IMG/VR virus record: IMGVR_UViG_3300027896_000109
Coordinates: 1 to 38,289 of that record
DNA: 38,289 bases
From: a virus
Strand: one strand, 5' to 3'
The first letter of the stretch is position 1. Each line of letters opens with the position of its first letter. Below are positions 96 through 37,246 of the stretch, one piece after another. Under the pieces are notes generated by a model. The model saw only the letters and a program-made list of their open reading frames with translations. It was not told the DNA's origin and did not search any database. Made by a program: the position numbers and the translations under genes.

Positions 96-1061
96 CTACG
101 ATAGGGTCGCCTTCAGGGCATATTGCCAGTAGCCGTAGCCGACGTTGCGGCTCGCCTTGATGCCGTACTGATGCCGGTCGGTGTCGTGCTCGTATTCCGA
201 GCCCTCGGCCTTGGCCGAGACCTTGACCCCGTACTCCTCCTGGCGGATCAGGGGCTTGGCCCGGGCATCGGTGCGCAGCACCACGAAGTTAGTGGTCCAG
301 GAGAGCAGCGGGTTGACCACCACCGCGATCTGGAAGCCATTGGCCTGCATGGCCCGGACCAGGAGGTTATCGGCGGCGGCCCCGGCGGCGGTGGCCACCA
401 TCGGCGAACTGACCGCGGCGATCGCCGGCACGAACAGCGGCACCGGCACCATCACCAGGAACTGCCGGGCCTGGCCGTTCAGCGGCTGGCCCTGGTCATC
501 CACATAGCGGTACTGGTAGCCGATGCAACCCAGGATGGCCGCGGCCATCTCCGCCGGGGTCGGGGTGGCGGCGGTCGCCACGTCCAACTGGGGCACCTGC
601 GCCGCGGCCAGGAGATTGAGCTGGGTCCCGGAATTGCCCTCGATGTGGCTGGCGCTGAAGAACGGCAGGCCGTCATAGCATAAGGCCGATTCCCCCAGGG
701 CCAGGGCCGCGGAGCCTAAGACCTCCCAGTGCTCGTTGACCCGGTCCGCCATCTCCTGGACCCGGAGCATGATCTGCCCGGTCTTGTCCCGGATCAGGTC
801 GTCCAGTTCGATGTCCAGGGTGGCCTCGAATTTGAGGTTTTCCAGGGAATAGGCGTCGGCCCGGAGTCCCTGGGGGTGACGGCCGGCGATCCATTGGCGC
901 ACCGCCGGGGACATGCCCAGCCACCGGTATTGCTCGACTTTCTGCTGCGAGGTCACCAGAAACGATACCGGCGACATCCAGGAGCCGGCCAACCCGGCCT
1001 CCAGGGTCTGAAAAAAGATGCCGATCAGGGCTCGGCTGGAAAATCCAAGTTGTTCAGGCAT
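96..1061 (-). CDS. Major capsid protein, Mu gpT-like
   Basis: This 321-residue protein has the length and features of the Mu-like major head subunit gpT family: an N-terminal arm, a central stretch with DGLPFFSASH around residues 130-140, a KPLIRQ motif near residue 270, and a C-terminus ending GYGYWQYALKATLS. It would assemble the icosahedral shell. It is the last complete gene of the head operon in this window, 2 bases after the coiled-coil gene. The surrounding large terminase, gpW, portal and S49 protease are of lambda type, so a Mu-type shell protein here is a mosaic combination. The family call rests on recognised motifs, not a search. Confidence 0.85.
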   Translation of the reverse strand: MPEQLGFSSRALIGIFFQTLEAGLAGSWMSPVSFLVTSQQKVEQYRWLGMSPAVRQWIAGRHPQGLRADAYSLENLKFEATLDIELDDLIRDKTGQIMLRVQEMADRVNEHWEVLGSAALALGESALCYDGLPFFSASHIEGNSGTQLNLLAAAQVPQLDVATAATPTPAEMAAAILGCIGYQYRYVDDQGQPLNGQARQFLVMVPVPLFVPAIAAVSSPMVATAAGAAADNLLVRAMQANGFQIAVVVNPLLSWTTNFVVLRTDARAKPLIRQEEYGVKVSAKAEGSEYEHDTDRHQYGIKASRNVGYGYWQYALKATLS

Positions 1062-1292: not shown

Positions 1293-2306
1293 TTAGGAGG
1301 CCGTGCCATAGAGCCGGATAAACTTCTGGCCGTCCGGGGTCATGACGCTGATGGCAATGGACGCCGCGGACAGAAAGCCCCCGGCCTCCTCGATGTTAAA
1401 CAAATGCGGCAGCCGGGCCGGATAGACCGTGATCGCCCCATCGATGATCGCCGAACCGTTCTGGCTGAGGCGGACCAGGTAATGGCCGCCGCTGGCTTTG
1501 ACGGTGCTGTGATCGTCGAACCAGGCGGACCAGCGCCGCCCCACCGACGCCCCGGTGGCGTCGATACACGAATACAGCCCGCAGACGATGTTGGCGACGC
1601 TGTTTTGGGTATAGGCGTTGGGCTGGGCATACCCCTGGACCGCATAGAGGTTGCCGTGGTTATCCACCCCGGCGGAGGCCGAGAAATTACCGCAGACCGT
1701 GGGTCCGGCGGCGTCGCTGCGGGCCCGCATCCGCAGGGTGGCGAAGTCGCCCGAGGCCGCGGCATTCGCCAGCAGCAGTTTCATCCCGCAGGCCCCAGGC
1801 GCGGTGAAGGGCACCCAGGTGATTCCAGTGGTCATCAGCGAGCCGTTGGTTTCGGTCCCCGGCACCAGGGTTTCGAAATCGAGGCGGCCCCCGCCCTCCA
1901 CCTCCTGGACCGTCAGGAACTCCACCACCGCGATGTTGGTGGTGACGTAACGGATCACCAGACCCACCAGGGTATTGGCGTTGCCATTCGAGGTCAGGGC
2001 CAGGGTATTGCTATCCGAGGCGAAGACCTGTTTGCCGGGGCTAGTGAGCGCCACCGAGGCGAGAGTGACCTGGGCCCGATAGCGGCCACTATGCAGCCAC
2101 ACCGAAATGGCTCCGGCGCCGCCGTTGCGGTTGTCAGCTTCGGCGGCGGCATGTCCGAGAAATTTCGCCCCCAGGACCGCGGTGGCCCGCCCGGCGGCAT
2201 CCGCAAAGACCAGGGACCCCTGAAAAAGTTGCTGGCCCGCGGCCACCGGGATAACGTTACGGTCGCCGGTCTCCAGTTCCAACGGCACATTCTTGCTTGC
2301 AGCCAT
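1293..2306 (-). CDS. Head decoration / capsid cement protein with an extra C-terminal domain
   Basis: 337 residues. The first ~120 (NVPLELETGDRNVIPVAAGQ, then a Gly/Ala/Val-rich beta region) resemble the DUF2190-like cement proteins that lie between protease and capsid genes in lambda- and Mu-like phages. Cement proteins are usually about 110-150 residues. Here a further ~200 residues follow, with many Asn/Ser/Gly residues and a few Cys, suggesting a second beta-rich domain displayed on the capsid surface, such as a head spike. The order protease, decoration, capsid supports the role. The function of the C-terminal domain is inference. Confidence 0.7.
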   Translation of the reverse strand: MAASKNVPLELETGDRNVIPVAAGQQLFQGSLVFADAAGRATAVLGAKFLGHAAAEADNRNGGAGAISVWLHSGRYRAQVTLASVALTSPGKQVFASDSNTLALTSNGNANTLVGLVIRYVTTNIAVVEFLTVQEVEGGGRLDFETLVPGTETNGSLMTTGITWVPFTAPGACGMKLLLANAAASGDFATLRMRARSDAAGPTVCGNFSASAGVDNHGNLYAVQGYAQPNAYTQNSVANIVCGLYSCIDATGASVGRRWSAWFDDHSTVKASGGHYLVRLSQNGSAIIDGAITVYPARLPHLFNIEEAGGFLSAASIAISVMTPDGQKFIRLYGTAS

Positions 2307-3737: not shown

Positions 3738-5250
3738 TGGCTCCACCTCCTACCTGCGAGTCGCCTTCCGGCAGGATCTGCACCTGCACGCTCAAAGGCG
3801 CAGGCAAACCCAATTCCTTCAGGCGCTTTTGCTCCCGGGCCCGCTGCTTCAGGACATCCTCCCAATCCCGGCCCTGGGCGGCGCACTGGTCCGCGAGGGT
3901 GGCGTAGTTGTAATCCTCCTCCAGCTTGGCGGCGACGATCTCCTTCACCGGATCGACCCAACCCCGGCCCGGCCCGATCCAGACCGCCCGGCAATATTCC
4001 GCCCGCTGGGCGTAGAAATTCTTTGCCGGGAACCGGCCCCGGAGATAGGCCTCCTCCAGGACCAGCTCCCACACCGGCTGGCAGAATTTCCGGGTCAGCC
4101 ATTGCCGCCAATAGAGAAAAACCCGCCAGGCTTCCAGCAGGGCCGCCCGGGCGCTGGAATAATTGGTCCGGGAAAAATCCTTGAGCAGCAGTTCATACGG
4201 CAACCCCAGGGCATTGCCGATGATGCGTAGCACCTTGGTCAGGAAGACGTCGAAAGTTTCGCCGCCCCGTTTGAAGTCGATGAGCTTGATGTCCTCCCCC
4301 GGGGCCAGGGTCGGGATCATGCCGGGCTCCAACTGCGTCAATTTTTTGCCGGTGCCGGGCTCCTGGATGGTGGCCAGGATGGGAATATTGGGATCGTTCT
4401 GGGTAATGACCGCCGACAGACAGGCGGCGACCTTTTCCGCGACCACCTCGGCGTCCAGGGAATCCGCCAGCGATTTAAATAATTTCAGCACCGGGGCGAA
4501 GTGGGGCACGCCCCGGACCTGGCCGGGTTGCTGGGTGGCGAAGATATGGAGGATCAAGGGGCGACCCTGGGCATCCCGGGCCGGAATCCCGGTGAATTCA
4601 AAGCTCGGCAATTCCAGGTCACCGACATTTTTGGGGGCCTTGCGAATCCAATAGCGCACCGGCTCCTGACGCACCGCCCCCAACTCCACCCCCTGAAAGA
4701 CATTCTCGCGGCTCAGACCCTGGGGGGTGGCCAGGCGGTCGGCGGCCACCATTTCCAGGGCCCGGCCCAGGGGCCGGAAGGAGGTCGGCGGCAATATCGG
4801 CAGGTTGACCAGGATTTCCCCGTCTTCAACCACCTTGCGCATCACCAGGGCCTGGATCTCGGCGAAATCGAGGCGGCCGGCGGCGTCGGCCCCAGGCTGC
4901 CAGAGATCGAAGGCGGCCTCGGCTTGCGCCTGGAGGGCCTCGGCCTCCTCTTCGGAGATCCCCAACTGGTCGGCCCGCAGGCGGCTCTGGGGCTGCAACC
5001 CCGGCCCGACGACATTGACGGTAATGGTTTGGGGGAGCGACGCGGCGATAGGGTCGTTGAGGCAGCGGTCCTGGGACCGGTCCCGCAGGGTCTGGAGTTC
5101 CCAGGGCAGGGGGTTGGTGCCCAGACCGGAGGTGACCCAATCCATCATCAGGCGGTTGAAGCGGGCGCCTTCGAAACGGCCGGCTGCCGCTTCGACCCGC
5201 AGGGGCCGGCCCAGATAATCCAGCAGGGGTCCGGGGGTTTCGGCTCGCAT
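3724..5250 (-). CDS. Portal protein, lambda gpB type
   Basis: 508 residues. The content (MMDWVTSGLGTNPLPWELQT near the N-terminus, DPIAASLPQTITVNVVGPGL, ADRL, then ALGLPYELLLKDFSRTNYSS and ARAALLEAWRVF around residues 360-395) is typical of the lambda-type phage portal family. It forms the dodecameric ring at the capsid vertex through which DNA enters and leaves. The open frame extends upstream, but the true start is the ATG at 5250, which shares a base with the gpW-like stop (TGATG). The lambda order W, portal, protease is preserved. Confidence 0.92.
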   Translation of the reverse strand: MRAETPGPLLDYLGRPLRVEAAAGRFEGARFNRLMMDWVTSGLGTNPLPWELQTLRDRSQDRCLNDPIAASLPQTITVNVVGPGLQPQSRLRADQLGISEEEAEALQAQAEAAFDLWQPGADAAGRLDFAEIQALVMRKVVEDGEILVNLPILPPTSFRPLGRALEMVAADRLATPQGLSRENVFQGVELGAVRQEPVRYWIRKAPKNVGDLELPSFEFTGIPARDAQGRPLILHIFATQQPGQVRGVPHFAPVLKLFKSLADSLDAEVVAEKVAACLSAVITQNDPNIPILATIQEPGTGKKLTQLEPGMIPTLAPGEDIKLIDFKRGGETFDVFLTKVLRIIGNALGLPYELLLKDFSRTNYSSARAALLEAWRVFLYWRQWLTRKFCQPVWELVLEEAYLRGRFPAKNFYAQRAEYCRAVWIGPGRGWVDPVKEIVAAKLEEDYNYATLADQCAAQGRDWEDVLKQRAREQKRLKELGLPAPLSVQVQILPEGDSQVGGGANAPQ

Positions 5251-5492
5251 CAGGCCGGCCTCTCGAACTGGACATAAGTGACGCGGCCACCCGCGGCGAT
5301 GGCTTCCCCCCGGGCATATTCCTTGAGCCAGAACTGGCGCTCCCGGTACATGGCGGCCAGGTCGCCCCGCTGCTGGTGCGCCCCCTGGCCCGGCCCCCCG
5401 GAGACCACGACCTGCTTGCTTTCGGTCTCGAGGATCTGGGTATCCAGGGCGACGATCTTCGCCTGAATTTCGGCTAAGGTATAGAGCGGCAT
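5250..5492 (-). CDS. gpW-like head-tail connector
   Basis: 80 residues from the ATG at 5492, which has GGGAGG just upstream. The N-terminus MPLYTLAEIQAKIVALDTQI followed by a charged helix (AAMYRERQFWLKEYARGE) fits the gpW family of small joining proteins that plug the portal after packaging. In lambda, W lies directly before the portal gene, as here. A terminator-like hairpin ends only about 10 bases upstream of the start codon, so expression may depend on readthrough or antitermination. Confidence 0.75.
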   Translation of the reverse strand: MPLYTLAEIQAKIVALDTQILETESKQVVVSGGPGQGAHQQRGDLAAMYRERQFWLKEYARGEAIAAGGRVTYVQFERPA

Positions 5493-5501
5493 GGACCTCC
5501 C

Positions 5502-5543
5502 AAAAAAAACCGGATGTTTCCTGAGAGGATACACCCGGTTTTT
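5502..5543 (-). terminator. Intrinsic terminator just before the gpW-like gene
   Basis: On the minus strand AAAAACCGG and CCGGTTTTT form a 9-bp stem, extended inward by a G/T-G-T to A-C-A pairing with one mismatch, and followed by eight T residues. This is a convincing rho-independent terminator. It separates the glycan cassette and HTH gene from the gpW-portal-capsid genes. Confidence 0.75.
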
Positions 5544-5576: not shown

Positions 5577-5801
5577 CTATGAACGCTCAGGTGATAACTT
5601 TTGCTCTTGACATATTTTTTTTCGCCGCCATTGGGTGATCAATTCCGAATCGGATTCCCAGACGCCATTCAGTTTTCTCGCCGGGAAATCTTGGCAAACG
5701 ATCCATTCCTCTACCGTCTTCCAAGACCGGCCGACAAAATTGCAAATATTCTTTTTCCCGGTAAGCAGAAAAGTCGTCATGGCGTGATCCCCGGTCGTCA
5801 T
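5577..5801 (-). CDS. Small winged-helix DNA-binding protein
   Basis: 74 residues. The segment GKKNICNFVGRSWKTVEEWI, then FPARKLNGVWESDSELITQW, has the helix-turn-helix plus wing pattern of excisionase and gpNu1-type proteins, and resembles the N-terminus of the small terminase at 11146. The ATG at 5801 overlaps the upstream stop as ATGA. A second in-frame ATG lies 21 bases downstream because a 21-base segment including the start codon is tandemly duplicated. It is the last gene of the glycan cassette, before a terminator. A regulatory role is likely but its target is unknown. Confidence 0.7.
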   Translation of the reverse strand: MTTGDHAMTTFLLTGKKNICNFVGRSWKTVEEWIVCQDFPARKLNGVWESDSELITQWRRKKICQEQKLSPERS

Positions 5802-6511
5802 GGCATGATCCCCTGCCGGTATTTTTCGTTGATCGCCGCGGTCTTGGCCAGATAGGTCTCCAGGGGTGTCGGCTCGGTGACGGTCTGCCCCCGCCAGTCC
5901 AGCGCCGCGCCGCAACGATCCTCGCCGATGAACCAGCGGGCGTAGCGGTTGACCTGGCTGTGCAGGGTCCACACCAACGACTCGCCATCGATCCGGTGAT
6001 CTACCAGGGATGGCATGGTGTACCACACCGGACGCCCCTGGGTCAGATACCAATAGGCGATGCGCACATCATAGTTGGGCATGTGGCAGTGGGCCTCGAC
6101 CCAGGCGAGCATCGGGGCAATATCGGCCACCGGCAGGAGCACCGCCGGGCCCCAGTTGAGGCGCTGCAGCACCAGCCAGCGCCCCCCCCGGCGCCCGTCC
6201 CGGCGGCATTGCGCCACCAGGTGGTTCCAGCGCTTCTTGTTGCGGACGAACAGTGAGATTGGCCGGTCCGGGGCCGCGGCAATCACTCGGGGCAAGGCCC
6301 GCAGCAAATCCCGGCTCAGGATCACATCATCCTGAAGCACCAGGTGGTGGCTGGCCGCCGGGTCGTGCAGCTCCCAGGCCCGCCGGCCGGTATCCCAACG
6401 GTTGCCGATCTGGTCCCAGGCCACCGGCACCTCCTGCCCGAGAGCGGCAAAGAGGGGGGGGATGAAGGCGGCCCGCGAGGGATGGGCCATGATGGAGACG
6501 GAGATGGTCAT
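5798..6511 (-). CDS. Putative GT-A type glycosyltransferase
   Basis: 237 residues. After an N-terminal beta strand (MTISVSIMAHPSR) comes HHLVLQDDVILSRDLLRALP near residues 55-75; the Asp-Asp pair after hydrophobic residues is the metal/nucleotide-sugar signature of GT-A folds, and the surroundings resemble GT25-like enzymes. It would transfer a sugar from a nucleotide donor; the acceptor is unknown. The start is 3 bases after the methyltransferase stop and its own stop overlaps the HTH gene start, so translation is coupled. Confidence 0.65.
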   Translation of the reverse strand: MTISVSIMAHPSRAAFIPPLFAALGQEVPVAWDQIGNRWDTGRRAWELHDPAASHHLVLQDDVILSRDLLRALPRVIAAAPDRPISLFVRNKKRWNHLVAQCRRDGRRGGRWLVLQRLNWGPAVLLPVADIAPMLAWVEAHCHMPNYDVRIAYWYLTQGRPVWYTMPSLVDHRIDGESLVWTLHSQVNRYARWFIGEDRCGAALDWRGQTVTEPTPLETYLAKTAAINEKYRQGIMP

Positions 6512-6514
6512 CGT

Positions 6515-7087
6515 TTACCCCAAATCCTGATCAAAATGATGGACTATTTGGTGATACCAGATGGACCCCAAGGTATGAAAATTCGTCCCGAAGATCTCCC
6601 GGACCGCCTGCACCACGCCCGGCCAACCGGACCGGTAGTCGTGCCCGGCGATGAGTTTCCGGGCCTTAGGCCGCCAGGCGAGAATATCGGCCCGGACCTC
6701 CTCATAGAGGTGGCCGCCGTCAATAAAGACCATATCCACCGCCGCGTCTTGGAACAGGGCCGCAGCCTCCAGACTCGGCTTACAGATCACCTGCAGGTTG
6801 GGAAAATGGTTAAGGTTTTTGAGAAACCGGGCGAAGACATCCTCCCGCTGCACCGCCCGGCAAGCCGGGTCCAGGTCCCCGGCGGCGGTCCGGCTGCCCT
6901 GCCAGTGATCTACCGCAAAGACCGGTCCATGGGTGCCGGACAACAGGGCATGGGTGCTGCGGCCATACCAGGAGCCGATCTCCACTACCGAGTCCATGCG
7001 CCCGGCGGTGGCGTAGAGCCATTGTAATAACTCGGGCCGCATCCAGCCCTTGAGGTCATTGCCGGGATAAACCTGATGAGACATCAT
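6515..7087 (-). CDS. Class I SAM-dependent methyltransferase
   Basis: 190 residues from the first of two adjacent ATGs at 7087, which overlaps the upstream stop. VVEIGSWYGRSTHALL is the SAM-binding motif I, FAVDHW the second acidic strand, and DMVFIDGGHLYEEVRADI with AGHDY are typical of Methyltransf_24-like enzymes that act on small molecules or sugars. Between glycosyltransferase genes it probably caps or modifies a glycan. DNA methylation is unlikely, because no DPPY/NPPY-type motif is present. Confidence 0.8.
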   Translation of the reverse strand: MMSHQVYPGNDLKGWMRPELLQWLYATAGRMDSVVEIGSWYGRSTHALLSGTHGPVFAVDHWQGSRTAAGDLDPACRAVQREDVFARFLKNLNHFPNLQVICKPSLEAAALFQDAAVDMVFIDGGHLYEEVRADILAWRPKARKLIAGHDYRSGWPGVVQAVREIFGTNFHTLGSIWYHQIVHHFDQDLG

Positions 7088-7740
7088 CGTTTCCCCTCGA
7101 TTAGCGGTCGGTCTCGCTCGCCGATTTTCGTATGACAATTGCCGCCGTGCACCACCAGGTCGCAATAACCCTCAGGCACCGTCACCACCCGGGGGCAAAT
7201 CTGCCACAGCCGGCGGTGATTACATTCGTAAATATAGCGATAGTTTTTCTGGTCGGGTTGGTAGAGGCTAAGGAACATCGAGGGTTGCTGCCGGTGATAA
7301 CGGGTGGCCAGGCGATAGCGTTGGCCGCTGGCCAGGTCCAGCTTGTAGGGTTGGAAGGATACCAACAGGGACTTGTCGGGCCGTTTGGCGATTTCTTTGC
7401 GAATGCGAGCCACGTAGTGTTTGGACAGCAAATCGTCGGAATCGTGCCGGGTCTGGATCGCCACCTGGGGCAGCGCCCCTTTCCCCGGCGCCAGGGCGAT
7501 GAGGCCGATTACCTGATCTTCCGCCTGGGCGCCATCCTGATATGTGCGGATCCGGGGGTCCAGGGCCTGCAAACGCTCCTGGTGGGCGGGATGACAACTA
7601 ATCCAGATGGCGAAATCCGGGCAGGTCTGGCGGGCCAGGCACGGGAGCACCTGCTGCTCGAAAAAATCCAGGCGCCAGGCGGCCCGGGGATCGTCCGGGG
7701 CGAAATATAGGCGGATGATGATGGCGTGGGTCAAAGTCAT
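7084..7740 (-). CDS. Putative rhamnosyltransferase-like glycosyltransferase
   Basis: 218 residues. It begins with an IIIRLYF strand, has QTCPDFAIWISCHPAHQERL near residue 40-55 and TRHDSDDLLSKHYVARI near residue 98-115. The Asp-Ser-Asp-Asp cluster fits the DxD motif of the putative rhamnosyltransferase family found in capsule and O-antigen loci and in phages. The stop at 7084 overlaps the methyltransferase start and its start overlaps the Stealth-like stop. Substrate and acceptor cannot be read from sequence. Confidence 0.7.
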   Translation of the reverse strand: MTLTHAIIIRLYFAPDDPRAAWRLDFFEQQVLPCLARQTCPDFAIWISCHPAHQERLQALDPRIRTYQDGAQAEDQVIGLIALAPGKGALPQVAIQTRHDSDDLLSKHYVARIRKEIAKRPDKSLLVSFQPYKLDLASGQRYRLATRYHRQQPSMFLSLYQPDQKNYRYIYECNHRRLWQICPRVVTVPEGYCDLVVHGGNCHTKIGERDRPLIEGKR

Positions 7741-8474
7741 CTCCGCGGCCCCGCTTCATAGCTGGAGGGCTCCGGGTAGAGGCGCTCCAGCAGCTGCCAG
7801 ACCAGCCGGGGCAGGTGTTCCCCGGTGGACCAGCAGGGCCGCTGGCGCAGGACTTCCAGCCAACCCTCGACGCTGCCATGGGTTCTGGCGGTCAGTTTGC
7901 AATCGGCCAGATAAACCCCGGCGATCTCCGGGCGGGAGTTGGCATAAACGCTTTTCATCACCACGCCCGGTCCCGCCAGGTCCAACCAATAGAAAGTATT
8001 AAAGATCTCCCGAAAGCACGCCGGGTGGATCAGGATGGGCGTATGCACGTCATAATTCCGGGTCGGCCGCCCCCAGCCCGCCAGCAGCCGCCGGGTATTG
8101 GCCAGGCGGCGGCTATATTCCCGGTGGAGCGATGGCCCCCCCTTGAGCTCGCCCTTGTGGTAATAGGGGAAGGCGACGGCCTCGCCATCCTGGGAAAAGT
8201 AATGGTCGTCGTTGACAAAGAGAAAGGGGTTGGATAAGCCGCGCTCCGGTTGACAGACGGCCAACATCTTGCGGATGATATTGGCATCCTTATTATGGGT
8301 GAAGGGGTCCGCCTCCGGCAGGTGCACCACCCCCCGCAGCCAGGTGGGCCGGGACCCCGCTACAAAAACCCTTTGCACCCCGGAAATATAGAGTGCCAGG
8401 CTCCGGAGCGAGAAGCGCAGCTCCCGGTGGTCTGAGAAGCTGTGATTCGTAGTAAAATAGACGACGTCGATCAT
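7737..8474 (-). CDS. Stealth-like sugar phosphotransferase / glycosyltransferase
   Basis: 245 residues from the ATG at 8474, which overlaps the large terminase stop (ATGA). IDVVYFTTNHSFSDHRELRF opens the protein, and NPFLFVNDDHYFSQDGEAVA near residues 100-120 carries the NDDhyf pattern seen in Stealth-type hexose-1-phosphate transferases. YDVHTPILIHPACF follows. It is the first gene of the cassette and is coupled to terminase translation, so it would be made late in infection with structural proteins. Function as a sugar-transferring enzyme is likely; the exact chemistry is not known. Confidence 0.65.
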   Translation of the reverse strand: MIDVVYFTTNHSFSDHRELRFSLRSLALYISGVQRVFVAGSRPTWLRGVVHLPEADPFTHNKDANIIRKMLAVCQPERGLSNPFLFVNDDHYFSQDGEAVAFPYYHKGELKGGPSLHREYSRRLANTRRLLAGWGRPTRNYDVHTPILIHPACFREIFNTFYWLDLAGPGVVMKSVYANSRPEIAGVYLADCKLTARTHGSVEGWLEVLRQRPCWSTGEHLPRLVWQLLERLYPEPSSYEAGPRR

Positions 8475-10366
8475 CTCCCCAGCCAACTCCCCTGGCGGAA
8501 TCCGGTGAAGGGGTTGACGCCGCCGGATTCCGGAATCACCGTTCCCGCCGGGCTGGATTGGGGTCGGGGCAGCAGCCAGACATTGAAAGCCTCCGCCGCC
8601 CCCGCCGCCAGCACCTCACAATCCAGCAGATGGTTCGCCCGGCCATATTGCACCGACCAGACCAGTTGCCCCTTCCGATTGCGTTCTTTGACTTCGGCCG
8701 CCAGATGCGCCCCGTAGATCTCATCGGTGTCGGCATCCAGGTGGAATAGACCGTTCTCGATGCGTGCCCAGATGAAATCCTTCAGGGCGTCGGTATCCAG
8801 CCGCCACAGCACCAGCCCGCCGGGCAGGGGTTTGCCGCTGGGATAGCAGTCAATCTGGCCCCGCACTGCCAACCGGCCCGAAGTCAGGGGCCGGGAACTC
8901 CCCTTGGAGCCGAAGATCCGCCCCCGCCCGGAGCGCCGCAACCAGTTGTAAACCTGCTCGGTCAGGGTGGCCTCCCCCTCTCCCATCAGCCCGCCGCCGG
9001 TGTCGATCAGGCCGGTCCAGACCCGGTGCTCCAGGCCGCTCATGGTACGGTAGACATCCTCAAATAGCCATTGCTCCAACTCCCCAAAACTGGCCACAAA
9101 CCCATGGCGGATTTTATGGGACTCCCGGAGGCCATCCGCAGTCAGCACCCAGGCCCGCAGCACCACCCAAAAGCCCCGTTTCTGCGAGTCAATGCCCGCG
9201 GTCAGGGCCAGGGTCTCCTCTGGCACCACCCAGGCCGGCCGGTTAGTGCGGCAATTAAGGATGGCCGCGGCTTCGTGGGACTGCACGATCTCTTTCCAGG
9301 GCTGCCCATCCCAAAGATTGGTCCAGGTTTTGAGCTGCTCGCGGTCCCGGTAGATCTCAAAAAATTTGGCGGCCATTTCCGACCAGGTGGCCAGGGGCGA
9401 GTATAGGGCGTTCCAGTGATAGCCCTGATGTACCGCTGGCCCCGGCCCGGCCTCCCCGGATTCGCCCCCCGCCGCCGGCCGCCAGACGCCCGCGGCCAGC
9501 ATCTCCGGGCGCTGCCGCTCGGTGATTTCCGCGGCGCAGTATTCGCACTGATACCGGGCCACCCGCTGCCGTTTGATATAGCCCGGATGCCGCCGATCTC
9601 GCGGCCATTGGCCCCGGGGTTCCCCGGCATGGATCACCCGGCCAAACTGCAGCACCTGATAACCGCCGCAATCGGGACAGGGTACCCAGAAGCGGCGGCG
9701 GTCGGAGCGGTCGTAATCTTTGGTGATGAAGCCCTCCGGGTCCGTGGGGGTGCTGGCGGTGATGATCTTGCGGTTCCAAAAGGATTGGCCCCGGATCTCC
9801 GCCATTTGCGTCGGCGACCCCTGCCCCGCCACGTCCAGGGGATACTTGTCGGTTTCATCCTCGAAAATATATCGGGCCTCAAAATCCCCCAGGTCGGCGG
9901 CGCTGCCGGCGGTGGCAAAGATGATCTCCATGTGCTGTAAGACGATGGATTTCTTCTGCTCATCGTCTGAATTGCCAGTGCAGTGCCGGGCCAGGTCGGG
10001 GCTGCAGCGAATCATTCGGAGAATCCGGCGGCAGGCCCGCTTCACCGAACTTTCGGTACTGGCCACCCACAGGGCCGGGGCCGGGTCCTGGGAAATGGCG
10101 TAGCCCAGCATGTTCAGCATGATTTCGGTTTTGACCGACCGGGCGCTGCCCATCAGGGTGATCCGCTCGACCTGGGGGTCATTAAACGCATCCATCGGCC
10201 CCACCGCCAGCCGCCCCTTGCCCTCATCCCAGCGCCCCGGAAAGGAGGACCCGACCGGAAACTCCCGGTGCGCCGCGGCCCACTGGCTGACGGTCAGGTC
10301 CGCGGGCGGGGCCCAGGCGGCCCGCTCCCGCGGCGACCAGATAGTTGTGTCAAGTTGCGTTAGCAT
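8471..10366 (-). CDS. terL: Terminase large subunit, GpA family
   Basis: 631 residues. The packaging ATPase and nuclease. A Walker A-like motif GSARSVKT lies at residues 73-80 (Val replaces the usual Gly before Lys, a variation also seen around the lambda gpA P-loop), Walker B YIFEDE at 166-171, a zinc-ribbon-like pair CPDC (230-233) and CEYC (274-277), and the C-terminal nuclease part contains GIDSQKRGFWVVLRAW and GLIDTGGG. The ATG at 10366 has only a close GGAG before it, so initiation may depend on coupling to upstream translation. It forms the packaging motor with the small subunit and docks on the portal. Confidence 0.93.
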   Translation of the reverse strand: MLTQLDTTIWSPRERAAWAPPADLTVSQWAAAHREFPVGSSFPGRWDEGKGRLAVGPMDAFNDPQVERITLMGSARSVKTEIMLNMLGYAISQDPAPALWVASTESSVKRACRRILRMIRCSPDLARHCTGNSDDEQKKSIVLQHMEIIFATAGSAADLGDFEARYIFEDETDKYPLDVAGQGSPTQMAEIRGQSFWNRKIITASTPTDPEGFITKDYDRSDRRRFWVPCPDCGGYQVLQFGRVIHAGEPRGQWPRDRRHPGYIKRQRVARYQCEYCAAEITERQRPEMLAAGVWRPAAGGESGEAGPGPAVHQGYHWNALYSPLATWSEMAAKFFEIYRDREQLKTWTNLWDGQPWKEIVQSHEAAAILNCRTNRPAWVVPEETLALTAGIDSQKRGFWVVLRAWVLTADGLRESHKIRHGFVASFGELEQWLFEDVYRTMSGLEHRVWTGLIDTGGGLMGEGEATLTEQVYNWLRRSGRGRIFGSKGSSRPLTSGRLAVRGQIDCYPSGKPLPGGLVLWRLDTDALKDFIWARIENGLFHLDADTDEIYGAHLAAEVKERNRKGQLVWSVQYGRANHLLDCEVLAAGAAEAFNVWLLPRPQSSPAGTVIPESGGVNPFTGFRQGSWLGR

Positions 10367-17269: not shown

Positions 17270-17278
17270 CTATATCGA
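17270..17278. promoter_or_regulatory. Putative repressor operator element, copy 1
   Basis: CTATATCGA lies upstream of the leftward -35 box and touches the repressor start codon. The same plus-strand 9-mer recurs at 19138 at the same distance from the other promoter. Binding is inference. Confidence 0.45.
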
Positions 17279-18036
17279 TGATTAAACCTGAGCACCAAAA
17301 TATTCGGGAACGAATTTTGAGTCTGGCGGCGCGCTTTAAGATAGCTGACTTGAAAAAAGGCGGCAAACTGGCTCGGGCTCTGGGAGTCCATAATTCCGTT
17401 ATCAAGCGCCTCATCGAAAATCAATCACTGCCAGCCCTTGATAACTTAAACAAAATCTGCGAAAAGGCAGGAGTTTCAGCAGATTGGGTCTTAACCGGAA
17501 GAGAACCCGAGCCGAAAACCGAAATCCAGGTCCTGGAACCCCGGCTGCTCTTCTCCGGCCTGCCCCAGGACCTGCCCCCCGAGGTCCGCGGCCTCAATTA
17601 CCGGTCCATTCCCCGCGTGGCCGGGTTCATCGGCGCCGGCTATGAGGGCGCGGTCCCCTGGGATTACTGTGACGGCCTGGTCCTGGTCCCCGAGTCGGAA
17701 TTGGGCAATCACGCCGGGCATGACCTCCGGGCCATCAGGGTGGCCCGCCAGGCCATCTCCATGATCCCCACCATCCGCCCCGGCGACATCGTCATCATCG
17801 ACCCCCAGGACCGCCCGGACCTGCCCCTGCGCCCCGCGGATAAAAAAGCGATTTGGGCCGTGCGCTATCCAGAAGGGGATAATGCCGCCCTCAAGCGGGT
17901 CCGGGAGGCTGACGACCATTGGGTCCTGCTCTCCGATAATCACCTCATCGACCCCATTCTCATCAAAAAAGCCGAAATCCCGGACCTCATCATCGGCCGG
18001 GTCATCTGGTCCTGGACCAAATGGATAAAATCATGA
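17278..18036 (+). CDS. CI/LexA-like repressor with S24 peptidase domain
   Basis: 252 residues. An N-terminal helix-turn-helix (residues ~24-75: KKGGKLARALGVHNSVIKRL, NLNKICEKAGVSADWVLTG) is joined to an S24 autopeptidase domain. The self-cleavage site is probably an Ala-Gly pair (115-116 or 120-121 in RVAGFIGAG), the nucleophile Ser161 in ISMIPTIRPGD and the base Lys206 in AALKRV. It should maintain lysogeny and be inactivated by RecA during DNA damage. The ATG at 17278 has only a distant AAGGA, so expression is probably weak. It faces the leftward early promoter. Confidence 0.9.
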   Translation: MIKPEHQNIRERILSLAARFKIADLKKGGKLARALGVHNSVIKRLIENQSLPALDNLNKICEKAGVSADWVLTGREPEPKTEIQVLEPRLLFSGLPQDLPPEVRGLNYRSIPRVAGFIGAGYEGAVPWDYCDGLVLVPESELGNHAGHDLRAIRVARQAISMIPTIRPGDIVIIDPQDRPDLPLRPADKKAIWAVRYPEGDNAALKRVREADDHWVLLSDNHLIDPILIKKAEIPDLIIGRVIWSWTKWIKS

Positions 18037-21793: not shown

Positions 21794-21823
21794 TTGACAA
21801 TTCCTCCCGGCCCACGACATAAT
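21794..21823 (+). promoter_or_regulatory. Integrase promoter
   Basis: TTGACA (21794-21799), an 18-base spacer and CATAAT (21818-21823), 27 bases before the integrase ATG. It lets the integrase be expressed independently of the early operon. Confidence 0.7.
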
Positions 21824-21850
21824 GATCCTCCCTGGCAAGGAGGGCTCTGC

Positions 21851-23011
21851 ATGGCCGGCCACATCCGCACCCACCAGCACTGCCCCCGGTGCGGCGGCAA
21901 TTTCGCCAAGGACTCGCTCCTCTGCCCCCCTTGCCAGACCCGCCCCAGCCGCTATTTTATCGACCTCTGGTGGCAGGCGGGCCGCCTCAAGATCTATACC
22001 GATCCCCAGGGCTATCCCCTGGACTCCTACGCCCGCACCGAGCAGTTGCTGTCCACCATCCGCCACCAAATGGGCAAGGGGACTTTCGACCCCGCCGACT
22101 TCGTCGCCCGGGAACTGCAATCCCTGCGCTTCGACCACTATGCCGCCGCCTGGCTGGACCGCCGCCAGCGGGAGGTGGGCCGCCCCGCCGGCATCAGCCG
22201 GGCCTATTTTAAGGAGCTCGCCCGCTATGTCGGTAGCTATTTCATTCCCTGCTTCGCCCGCCTCAGCATCCGGGACTTACGCAAAGGCCACCTCCTGGAT
22301 TTCCAGGCCTGGCTGCCGGCGCACCTGGCGCCCAAGACCGTGCGCAATATCTTCGGGGCCCTGCATTGCCTTCTGGCCGAAGCCGCCGACCGCAAGGACC
22401 TCCTGGTCCTGCCCGGCTTCCCCCGGATCCCTAAAGGGGAGGCCGAGACCCGATGGCTGACCGCGGAAGAGCAGGCCCAGGTCCTGGGCCATTGCCGGGA
22501 GCCGTACCGCAGCCTCTTCCTGTTTTGCATGCGCCAGGGCTGCCGCATCGGTGAAGCCCGGGCCTTGAAATGGGACCGGGTGGACCTGAAAAACCGCCTG
22601 GTGGTCATCGCCGCCGGCCTGGATTTAGGCGTCTGGAAACCCTACACCAAGGAGCGGGACGTGCGCCATCTGCCCTTGCACGACCGGGTGCGCCAGGCCC
22701 TCCTGGCCCTGCCCCGGAGCCTCTCCGGTTTCGTCTTCGTCAACCGGGAGGGCCGCCCCCTGTCTGATACCCGGGTGCGCAGCGCCTGGAACCGGGCCGC
22801 GGCCTTAGCCGGAATCAGCATTAACTGCTACCAGGGCACCCGCCACTCCTTTGCCACTCAGCGGCTCATCTCCGGGCACTCCGAGCGCAAGATCATGGAG
22901 GTCACCGGCCACAAGACCAGCGCCGCCTTCCGCCGCTATGGCAAACTGGTCACCGAGGCCCTCCGGGCCGTGATCGACGATGATGGGCACGAAGGAAAAT
23001 TCAGAAGATAA
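21851..23011 (+). CDS. int: Tyrosine integrase with N-terminal zinc ribbon
   Basis: 386 residues; the ATG at 21851 has AAGGAGG 8 bases upstream. Cys11, Cys14, Cys25 and Cys28 form a zinc ribbon, then an arm-binding and a SAM-like core-binding domain (~90-200), then the catalytic domain. Catalytic residues: Arg232 (GCRIGEA), Lys267 (TKERDVR), Arg331 (GTRHSFAT), His354 (GHKTS) and the nucleophile Tyr363 (RRYGKL). The His normally three residues before the second Arg is Gln328. It recombines the adjacent attP with the host tmRNA gene. Confidence 0.93.
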   Translation: MAGHIRTHQHCPRCGGNFAKDSLLCPPCQTRPSRYFIDLWWQAGRLKIYTDPQGYPLDSYARTEQLLSTIRHQMGKGTFDPADFVARELQSLRFDHYAAAWLDRRQREVGRPAGISRAYFKELARYVGSYFIPCFARLSIRDLRKGHLLDFQAWLPAHLAPKTVRNIFGALHCLLAEAADRKDLLVLPGFPRIPKGEAETRWLTAEEQAQVLGHCREPYRSLFLFCMRQGCRIGEARALKWDRVDLKNRLVVIAAGLDLGVWKPYTKERDVRHLPLHDRVRQALLALPRSLSGFVFVNREGRPLSDTRVRSAWNRAAALAGISINCYQGTRHSFATQRLISGHSERKIMEVTGHKTSAAFRRYGKLVTEALRAVIDDDGHEGKFRR

Positions 23012-35465: not shown

Positions 35466-36178
35466 TTAATTAGGCCGCCGTCGCCGGGTCACCACCGGCA
35501 GGCCCTGGATCCAGGGCTTCAGGGGATTGTCCCCGCCGGGCGCCCTGGCGGCCGTCGCCGCATCTTCCGCCAGCCAGGCCTGGAGCAATCGCCCTTCCGT
35601 TCCTAAGGCGTCCCGAATTCCTAAGGAGACCCCCACCGCCAGCTCCACCGCCAGGCGGCGGCGGTTGGCCCGAGCCACCCGGGCGAGATTGAGGACCAGC
35701 CCCACCGGGTAGCCGTCCACCACATCCTTGAAACAATGCCCCCGGCTGACCAGGTCGTCGATTAGTCCGGTCAGGGCGAGGGGGTCGAGGCCCCGGTCCC
35801 GGGAGCCCGGCGCGGGATCAGGGCCGAAAAGTTTTTTAGGGGCTCCAGGTTCTGGGAGAAGATGGTTACGGCCAGGGCCAGACCCGGCGCCCACGCCAAT
35901 TCCTCCACCTCGGCCAGGGGAATTTCCAGGGTGACGGCGATCAGGGACCGCACCAGGGGCATCAGTTCCGGGGCCAGATCCAGGAGTTTCTCTCCCAGGA
36001 ACTGCTCCAGGTTGTCCCAGGTCATCCCCGCAGCCACCAGGGCCGCCACCAGGGGCCGGGCCACGGGATAGACCTGATCGAATTTTTTTAGGGTCCAGGG
36101 CCGGACGGTGTAACCGCCGATCTGCACCGGCCCGGTAAACAGGACCTGCACCTCATCGGGGATGATCTTTTTGCTCAT
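35466..36178 (-). CDS. Tail assembly chaperone fusion (G-T) made by -1 frameshift
   Basis: Reading 116 codons from 36178 to the slippery site, shifting back one base and continuing to 35466 gives a 237-residue fusion. The downstream frame (LFGPDPAPGSRD, then LALTGLIDDLVSRGHCFKDV) has no own start codon with a ribosome binding site. This is the gpG/gpGT arrangement of lambda and most siphoviruses, made in low ratio to hold tape measure and tube subunits during assembly. The frames overlap by 124 bases. Confidence 0.85.
35771..36178 (-). CDS. Tail assembly chaperone (G-like)
   Basis: 135 residues, product of normal reading. VQVLFTGPVQIGGYTVRPWT, then LKKFDQVYPVARPLVAALV and LIAVTLEIPLAEVEELAWAP resemble G-like chaperones. 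The start overlaps the tube gene stop (ATGA). The last ~20 residues (RRAPGTGASTPSP) exist only in the unshifted product. Confidence 0.8.
   Translation of the reverse strand: MSKKIIPDEVQVLFTGPVQIGGYTVRPWTLKKFDQVYPVARPLVAALVAAGMTWDNLEQFLGEKLLDLAPELMPLVRSLIAVTLEIPLAEVEELAWAPGLALAVTIFSQNLEPLKNFSALIPRRAPGTGASTPSP
35831..35837 (-). promoter_or_regulatory. -1 ribosomal frameshift site A-AAA-AAC
   Basis: On the minus strand the heptamer AAAAAAC is read CTA-AAA-AAC in the normal frame, exactly the X-XXY-YYZ phase. After a -1 slip the next codons are CTT TTC GGC, matching the downstream frame LFG. A GC-rich stretch downstream could form a stimulatory structure. Confidence 0.85.
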
Positions 36179-36717
36179 ACCGAGCCCTCATCCTCGTAAT
36201 AGATGATCCGGCCCAGGGGGTAGGTCGGCGTCGCCAGGTAATTATCCAGGATCTCCAGCATCATCGGCAGCTCCAGGACCTTCTTGTCATCATAGGTGAT
36301 GGCCCCATTGGGCTTGAGCTGGCACAGGGGGACCTCAATATCGAAGGCCCGGCCCTTGCCCGGCGCCGGCTGACATTCCAGGCGGGCGGCGCCCTGGAGG
36401 TAATCGCTGACGCCGATGGCGAAGCGCCGGCCCCCGGACACCCCTTCATCGTCGCCACCTTTGAAGAAGGCCTGCAAGTTGGCCAGGATCGGGGAATTGA
36501 GCGAAAAGCTGATGGTCAGCTGCTCTTCAATGGCCCAGGTCTTGGCCACCCGGCGCATGCCCGAGCGGTTGCTGTAGTACTTCAATTCCTCGGTTTTCGG
36601 TTCCACCTTCAGGCCCGGGGATTCGAAAAACCCCAGGTCCCGCTCTCCGGAGCCGTCGTCAAAGTACAGGACAGTACCGCCGGGAATGGTCAGATCGGCA
36701 ATGTTGGGCGTGGTCAT
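36175..36717 (-). CDS. Major tail tube protein
   Basis: 180 residues from the ATG at 36717, where GGGAGG lies 6 bases upstream; an upstream ATG in frame lies inside the neighbouring gene. GGTVLYFDDGSGERDLGFFE, ELKYYSNRSGMRRVAKTWAI-EEQLTISFSL and KKVLELPMMLEILDNYLATP are typical of tube subunits. It forms the hexameric rings of the tail. Placed between completion and chaperone genes as expected. Confidence 0.85.
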   Translation of the reverse strand: MTTPNIADLTIPGGTVLYFDDGSGERDLGFFESPGLKVEPKTEELKYYSNRSGMRRVAKTWAIEEQLTISFSLNSPILANLQAFFKGGDDEGVSGGRRFAIGVSDYLQGAARLECQPAPGKGRAFDIEVPLCQLKPNGAITYDDKKVLELPMMLEILDNYLATPTYPLGRIIYYEDEGSV

Positions 36718-36718
36718 G

Positions 36719-37246
36719 TTATCCTCCCGTGAGTGCAAAGGCATCGCCGGCGGCGTGCCCGTAGGTGAGTTGATAGGCCATAAATAACACCCCGTAGTCC
36801 GAATTGTAGCGGGCCTGATCCACCCGGCCCGGTTCCACCAGGATCAGGCCCGCGGCCCGCAATTCGCCGGGCGCCGCAAAAAGATTGGCGATCCGCCCGG
36901 CGACAGTGGCCGCCGCATCTTTAAAGGCGGTGAAGCTGGCGAGATCATCCGGGTCCAGGACGAAAAAGACCTCCAGCCAGAAATCGAGTTTCCCGAGAGT
37001 CAGGCGGTTAAAGGACCCCGGTTCCGCTTGTTCATTTTCCCAGCAGTAGAGGGCGGGCATGGCCAGGCCGGTGAAATCCGCCGGGATGTCCTCCTCCCGT
37101 TTTACCACCGCCACCTCCAGGATCTCGTTTAGGCGCTCCTCGATGGCCCGGAGCAGCCCGGTCTTGATGGTCTCCCCCACCGGCTGCAGCAGACCCAGCC
37201 CATAAAAAACCCCGCGGCTGACGAATCCTAAATAATCTCGGGCCAT
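36719..37246 (-). CDS. Tail completion / terminator protein
   Basis: 175 residues. RDYLGFVSRGVFYGLGLLQP, AIEERLNEILEVAVVKREED, and the position immediately before the tube gene fit gpU/gp17-like proteins that cap the tail at the head end. It overlaps the previous gene by 19 bases and ends two bases before the tube start. Identification is by order and general features. Confidence 0.65.
   Translation of the reverse strand: MARDYLGFVSRGVFYGLGLLQPVGETIKTGLLRAIEERLNEILEVAVVKREEDIPADFTGLAMPALYCWENEQAEPGSFNRLTLGKLDFWLEVFFVLDPDDLASFTAFKDAAATVAGRIANLFAAPGELRAAGLILVEPGRVDQARYNSDYGVLFMAYQLTYGHAAGDAFALTGG

Follow-up and report, generated by a model that had tools for sequence, protein, structure and literature searches.

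A putative virion glycosylation cassette with a predicted minimal Stealth-type enzyme behind the terminase gene of a lambda-type temperate phage

Introduction

Four genes for predicted sugar-modifying enzymes stand directly behind terL, the large terminase gene, of a temperate phage and raise the question of what their products modify. In the literature reached, phage-encoded virion glycosylation has been shown for mycobacteriophages. PMC12363180 reports two glycosyltransferases, Che8 gp110 and Corndog gp38, as essential for capsid glycosylation in mycobacteriophages, and PMC12619734 locates the glycans of Mycobacterium phages at the C-termini of their capsid and tail-tube subunits.

Results

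Gene order at the locus

The window analysed here is the whole of IMG/VR virus record IMGVR_UViG_3300027896_000109, 38,289 bases. The phage is temperate, with genes for a CI-like repressor and an integrase; a CII-like gene, a D5-type primase, terS, terL, the portal, a decoration-type protein and the major capsid protein (MCP) are encoded on the minus strand. The features discussed are:

17278-18036, plus strand: CI-like repressor
21794-23011, plus strand: integrase
8471-10366, minus strand: TerL, lambda gpA-type large terminase (Pfam GpA_ATPase 5.5e-61, GpA_nuclease 6.6e-40)
7737-8474, minus strand: GT1, predicted minimal Stealth-type sugar-1-phosphate transferase (PHROG 7999)
7084-7740, minus strand: GT2, putative rhamnosyltransferase-family glycosyltransferase (Pfam Rhamno_transf 6.1e-17, 62 bits, cut-off 23)
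6515-7087, minus strand: MT, SAM methyltransferase (Pfam Methyltransf_24 2.6e-17)
5798-6511, minus strand: GT3, glucosyltransferase family (PHROG 854, 1.3e-28)
5577-5780, minus strand: WH, small winged-helix/HTH-like protein (alternative start 5801)
5504-5542, minus strand: terminator-like hairpin that has A and T tracts and lies between WH and gpW
5250-5492, minus strand: gpW-like head-tail adaptor, preceding the portal (PHROG 118 0.0031, a weak match)
minus strand: portal (PF05136 1.8e-87)
96-1061, minus strand: MCP
36175-36744: tail-tube candidate

GT1, GT2, MT, GT3 and then WH follow terL on its 3' side, all on the minus strand. ATGA overlaps join the start of GT1 to the stop of terL (8471-8474), GT2 to GT1 (7737-7740) and MT to GT2 (7084-7087), and GT3 starts 3 nt past the MT stop. 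WH could start at 5801, in an ATGA with the GT3 stop; homology favours 5780. An ATGA overlap is possible at four of the five junctions, the fifth being the 3-nt gap. These coordinates confirm a preliminary description of the locus, in which the enzymes were linked by overlapping or adjacent stop and start codons beginning on the terL stop. Its Stealth-like, rhamnosyltransferase-like and SAM methyltransferase assignments likewise agree with the matches to Stealth_CR2, Rhamno_transf and Methyltransf_24. The window was also scanned for Rfam families and tRNAs, with no matches.

Conservation and insertion site

Two related contigs carry closely similar gene sets. L059 (contig 3300037424_002632) has GT1, GT2, MT, GT3 and WH in the order of the window, at approximately 55-76% protein identity, and L060 (contig 3300018055_000152) has GT1-GT2-MT with a PF00535 glycosyltransferase in the place of GT3. 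GT2 is 68% identical in L059 and 45% identical in L060. The shared order in these two contigs indicates that the arrangement is not chance, and TerL is only 54-62% identical between the contigs that share GT1-GT2-MT. In all four enzyme genes differences are concentrated at third codon positions, indicating purifying selection. In a further contig, L073, GT1 follows terL and the contig ends there. L059 also has an additional 107-aa gene without known family between GT1 and GT2 (6507-6830).

Among approximately 20 contigs with TerL at least 49% identical, a set that includes near-duplicates, the cassette is found in the window, L059, L060 and partly L073, and is missing from about a dozen relatives with similar TerL. 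L085/L090 (TerL 63% and MCP 60% identical) have the order terL, WH, hairpin, gpW, portal, and WH stands directly behind terL, without any glycosyltransferase, in L085, L091, L106 and L113. The cassette was therefore inserted between terL and WH. WH, which is 58-61% identical in L059 and L060, was rejected as a cassette member and, from these comparisons, is a phage backbone gene. The five-gene cassette of the preliminary description is thus reduced to its four enzymes.

Elsewhere among the relatives, the interval from terL to the portal is occupied by an IS605-type OrfB transposase, BRO/P22_AR-type genes or SSB, and in the more distant L033 by DNA methylases. By these gene contents, the terL-gpW interval is a general, variable cargo site in this lineage, and with cargo so varied a location there is weak evidence for function. 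A nucleotide search of the region against GenBank phages gave no match, and scans of genome contigs with portal and MCP found no prophage.

Expression signals

The preliminary description had taken the position between terL and gpW to mean late expression. The terminator-like hairpin separates the block from gpW. Its folding energy is -23.6 kcal/mol (z -5.2). The hairpin sequence is near-identical in the window, L059, L060, L085 and L091; folding is strong in the window and L059 (z about -5) and less clear in L060. The preliminary description did not include a hairpin between the block and gpW. A promoter scan found no more promoter-like sites in the cassette than expected by chance, and the strongest promoter-like site (17259-17232, 11 of 12) is divergent from the repressor. 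It is likely that the terminase and the cassette form one transcription unit that ends at the hairpin unless antiterminated.

Short sequence elements are also present near the end of the block. A 15-mer, TGTCAAGAGCAAAAG (5598-5612, minus strand), lies near the WH stop, upstream of the hairpin. It is kept in L059, in L060 with one change, and partly in L085; TGTCAAGAGCAAAAG may be where the WH protein binds. Between WH and the hairpin, L085 (3600-3700) has GCGGGTCTGA repeated in tandem; at the corresponding place in the window stands a shorter repeat, GCGTTCATAG.

GT1 resembles a minimal Stealth enzyme

GT1 (245 aa) belongs to PHROG 7999, labelled 'unknown function'. Alone, it matches PF11380 Stealth_CR2 at 2.7e-7 and 31.2 bits, under the Pfam cut-off of 39.4; all 13 GT1 family members match this domain at E <= 0.01. 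A profile of the 13 sequences matches, among solved structures in the PDB, GNPTAB (8.6e-16) and CpsY (4.6e-7). Stealth CR4 is matched at E 0.19 only, with H-P and pSxyE matching in the GNPT alignment. An AlphaFold2 model from the 13-sequence alignment reached pLDDT 88.3, compared to 35 with three sequences. Along its entire length the model superposes on human GNPT (Z 21.3, rmsd 2.8) and on CpsY (Z 18.9), whereas other GT-A folds reach at most 11.7. GNPT, the GlcNAc-1-phosphotransferase, makes the mannose-6-phosphate tag in animals. The fold of GNPT and of Mycobacterium tuberculosis CpsY, both Stealth proteins, is common to the whole GT1 model, and the ELRYSLRS, DD and H-P motifs are shared. 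GT1 differs in being a minimal form and in having KDANIIRK where the canonical CR2 stretch would be. Because the Z gap to other GT-A folds is large, the modelled fold points to Stealth-type activity: GT1 is likely a minimal Stealth-type sugar-1-phosphate transferase, which would assign a likely activity to a PHROG without a labelled function.

GT1 homologues recur in the head-tail gene blocks of unrelated phages. One lies between the major tail protein and the head-tail adaptor in TurkishDelight, another just upstream of terS/terL in Fionnbharth, and others amid terminase, capsid, tail or Dit genes in L071, L075, L078 and L083. Methyltransferases are nearby in L071, L078 and L083, as are a UDP-galactopyranose mutase in L071 and a sulfotransferase in L078. 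Some GT1 or GT3 homologues are outside structural blocks, as in Gordonia OneUp and Ronaldo.

GT2 and the methyltransferase

GT2 has no GenBank phage relative at the sensitivity used, and neither GT2 nor GT3 has a solved structural relative by sequence. The best solved relative of the MT family is PDB 6g7d (1.8e-4), which we take to be the sugar O-methyltransferase MeT1. PMC9883506 describes MeT1, without the PDB code 6g7d. MT is homologous to the C-terminal half of pas34 of Actinoplanes phage phiAsp2 and to Fionnbharth gp95. The K4 mycobacteriophages carry homologues of GT1 and MT close to the left and right genome ends, respectively. Judged by its relatives, MT probably acts on a sugar hydroxyl.

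MT (6515-7087) also matches PHROG 2675, named 'DNA methyltransferase'. This name is a probable mislabel, since it is a Methyltransf_24 domain that gives the match, and pas34 of phiAsp2 is annotated 'putative O-methyltransferase'.

GT3 is related to a virion glycosyltransferase

GT3 and Che8 gp110 both belong to PHROG 854, and the two are homologous (blastp 4e-6, 26% identity over 197 aa; profile E 9.9e-13). GT3 also matches phiAsp2 pas35 and Ronaldo gp139 by blastp or profile, and the QDD/EDD and PS[LI][VI]DH motifs are shared. GT3 is a candidate for the enzyme that adds the first sugar to a virion protein.

Gene sets with a glycosyltransferase, a methyltransferase and a PHROG-854 gene last occur in phiAsp2 (pas33-35), Che8 (gp108-110), the window and L059. 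Che8 gp108-110, which PMC12363180 and PMC11256854 cite from Freeman et al. 2023 as genes for virion glycosylation, form a sugar-transfer cluster as in the window, with a methyltransferase-like part in gp108 and the PHROG-854 glucosyltransferase last. Unlike the Che8 cluster, the window cassette belongs to a lambda-type TerL lineage, lies between terL and WH/gpW, and includes a Stealth enzyme and a Rhamno_transf enzyme, neither of which was found in the Che8 cluster. In phiAsp2, pas33-pas35 encode a glycosyltransferase, a Methyltransf_24 domain and a PHROG-854 glycosyltransferase after the tail genes, and pas34-35 are translationally coupled like the window genes. The phiAsp2 cluster differs in that MT is fused to a glycosyltransferase domain and no Stealth enzyme was seen in that stretch.

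Discussion

The results indicate that the cassette probably glycosylates the virion proteins of the phage itself during assembly. This function was proposed in the preliminary description on the basis of position, an argument that is weak at a site with such varied cargo; the proposal now draws its support from the homology of GT3 to Che8 gp110 and from the GT1 homologues in head-tail blocks. Against it, GT3 is just 26% identical to Che8 gp110 and is replaced by a different family in L060.

Acceptor, order of steps, linkage, timing and benefit are proposed as follows. The four enzymes would build a glycan on the major capsid and/or tail-tube protein from host nucleotide sugars. GT3 would place the first sugar on a Ser/Thr residue of the structural protein, GT2 would add a second sugar, a deoxyhexose or similar, and MT would O-methylate a sugar hydroxyl. 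GT1 would transfer a sugar-1-phosphate onto the chain, which would then carry a phosphodiester; the virion glycan is thus probably phosphate-linked and O-methylated. The cassette genes would be co-translated with terL, so that the enzymes would be made alongside the packaging proteins, and, provided that the repressor shuts down the leftward operon, the cassette would be off in the lysogen. The glycan coat may hide or alter the particle surface with respect to antibodies, grazers or adsorption.

Capsid and tail-tube sequences contain no obvious acceptor segment. The preliminary description had suggested comparing related phages with and without the cassette; cassette-less sites were found, but the capsid protein of cassette-less L085 has everything evident that the capsid proteins of the carriers have. 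In the decoration-type protein of the window (1293-2306, minus strand), PHROG 1731 covers residues 8-129, and a C-terminal extension of approximately 200 residues is missing in L059, L060 and L085. As two of the contigs without it, L059 and L060, carry the cassette, this extension was set aside as the acceptor.

It is unlikely that the enzymes instead modify host LPS or capsule to seroconvert the host, exclude superinfection or aid release from debris. Bacterial Stealth and rhamnosyltransferase-type enzymes do have capsule or LPS as their target, GT1 finds its best structural match among bacterial proteins in CpsY, an exopolysaccharide phosphotransferase, and the phage is temperate, with repressor and integrase. 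However, genes for a flippase, for lipid-linked sugars or for an O-antigen acetylase were not recognised, and no cassette protein matches the hallmarks of gtr/oac O-antigen conversion (flippase, lipid-linked glucosyltransferase, O-acetylase). A simple hydropathy scan found no transmembrane segments in the four enzymes, with no hydrophobic 19-mer >1.6. In addition, promoter-like sites within the cassette stay at chance level, and GT3 has its closest characterised relative in an enzyme that acts on virions.

That the genes are unselected hotspot cargo, modifying some host protein or serving defence, is quite improbable. Unrelated cargo does occupy the same interval in relatives, but the GT1-GT2-MT order is kept despite the TerL divergence, the genes are under purifying selection, and related gene sets recur in head-tail blocks elsewhere. 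Hypermodification of phage DNA against restriction is very improbable: phage glycosyltransferases are known to glycosylate DNA (cited in PMC12619734) and PHROG 2675 bears a DNA methyltransferase name, but MT has the Methyltransf_24 domain and the O-methyltransferase-annotated relative pas34, and no hydroxymethylase or base-modifying enzyme was recognised among the main window proteins searched, a set covering part of the small ORFs.

Virion glycosylation by this cassette would extend the genetics known from mycobacteriophages to a lambda-type temperate lineage. Compared with known virion glycosylation, the new features are the Stealth enzyme, the lineage, and the fact that relatives differ in the presumed initiating enzyme through a swap, and the cassette predicts a phosphodiester-linked, O-methylated glycan. 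K4 mycobacteriophages such as Fionnbharth, with GT1 and MT homologues, make this reading directly testable. Tentatively, and with somewhat less confidence than even, PHROG 7999 and its relatives may be a widespread minimal Stealth family that adds sugar-1-phosphate to virion glycans, giving a phosphoglycan coat akin to the mannose-6-phosphate precursor. Since the initiating enzyme would be exchangeable (GT3 in the window and L059, a GT2-family enzyme in L060), the surface glycans of these phages may vary like serotypes.
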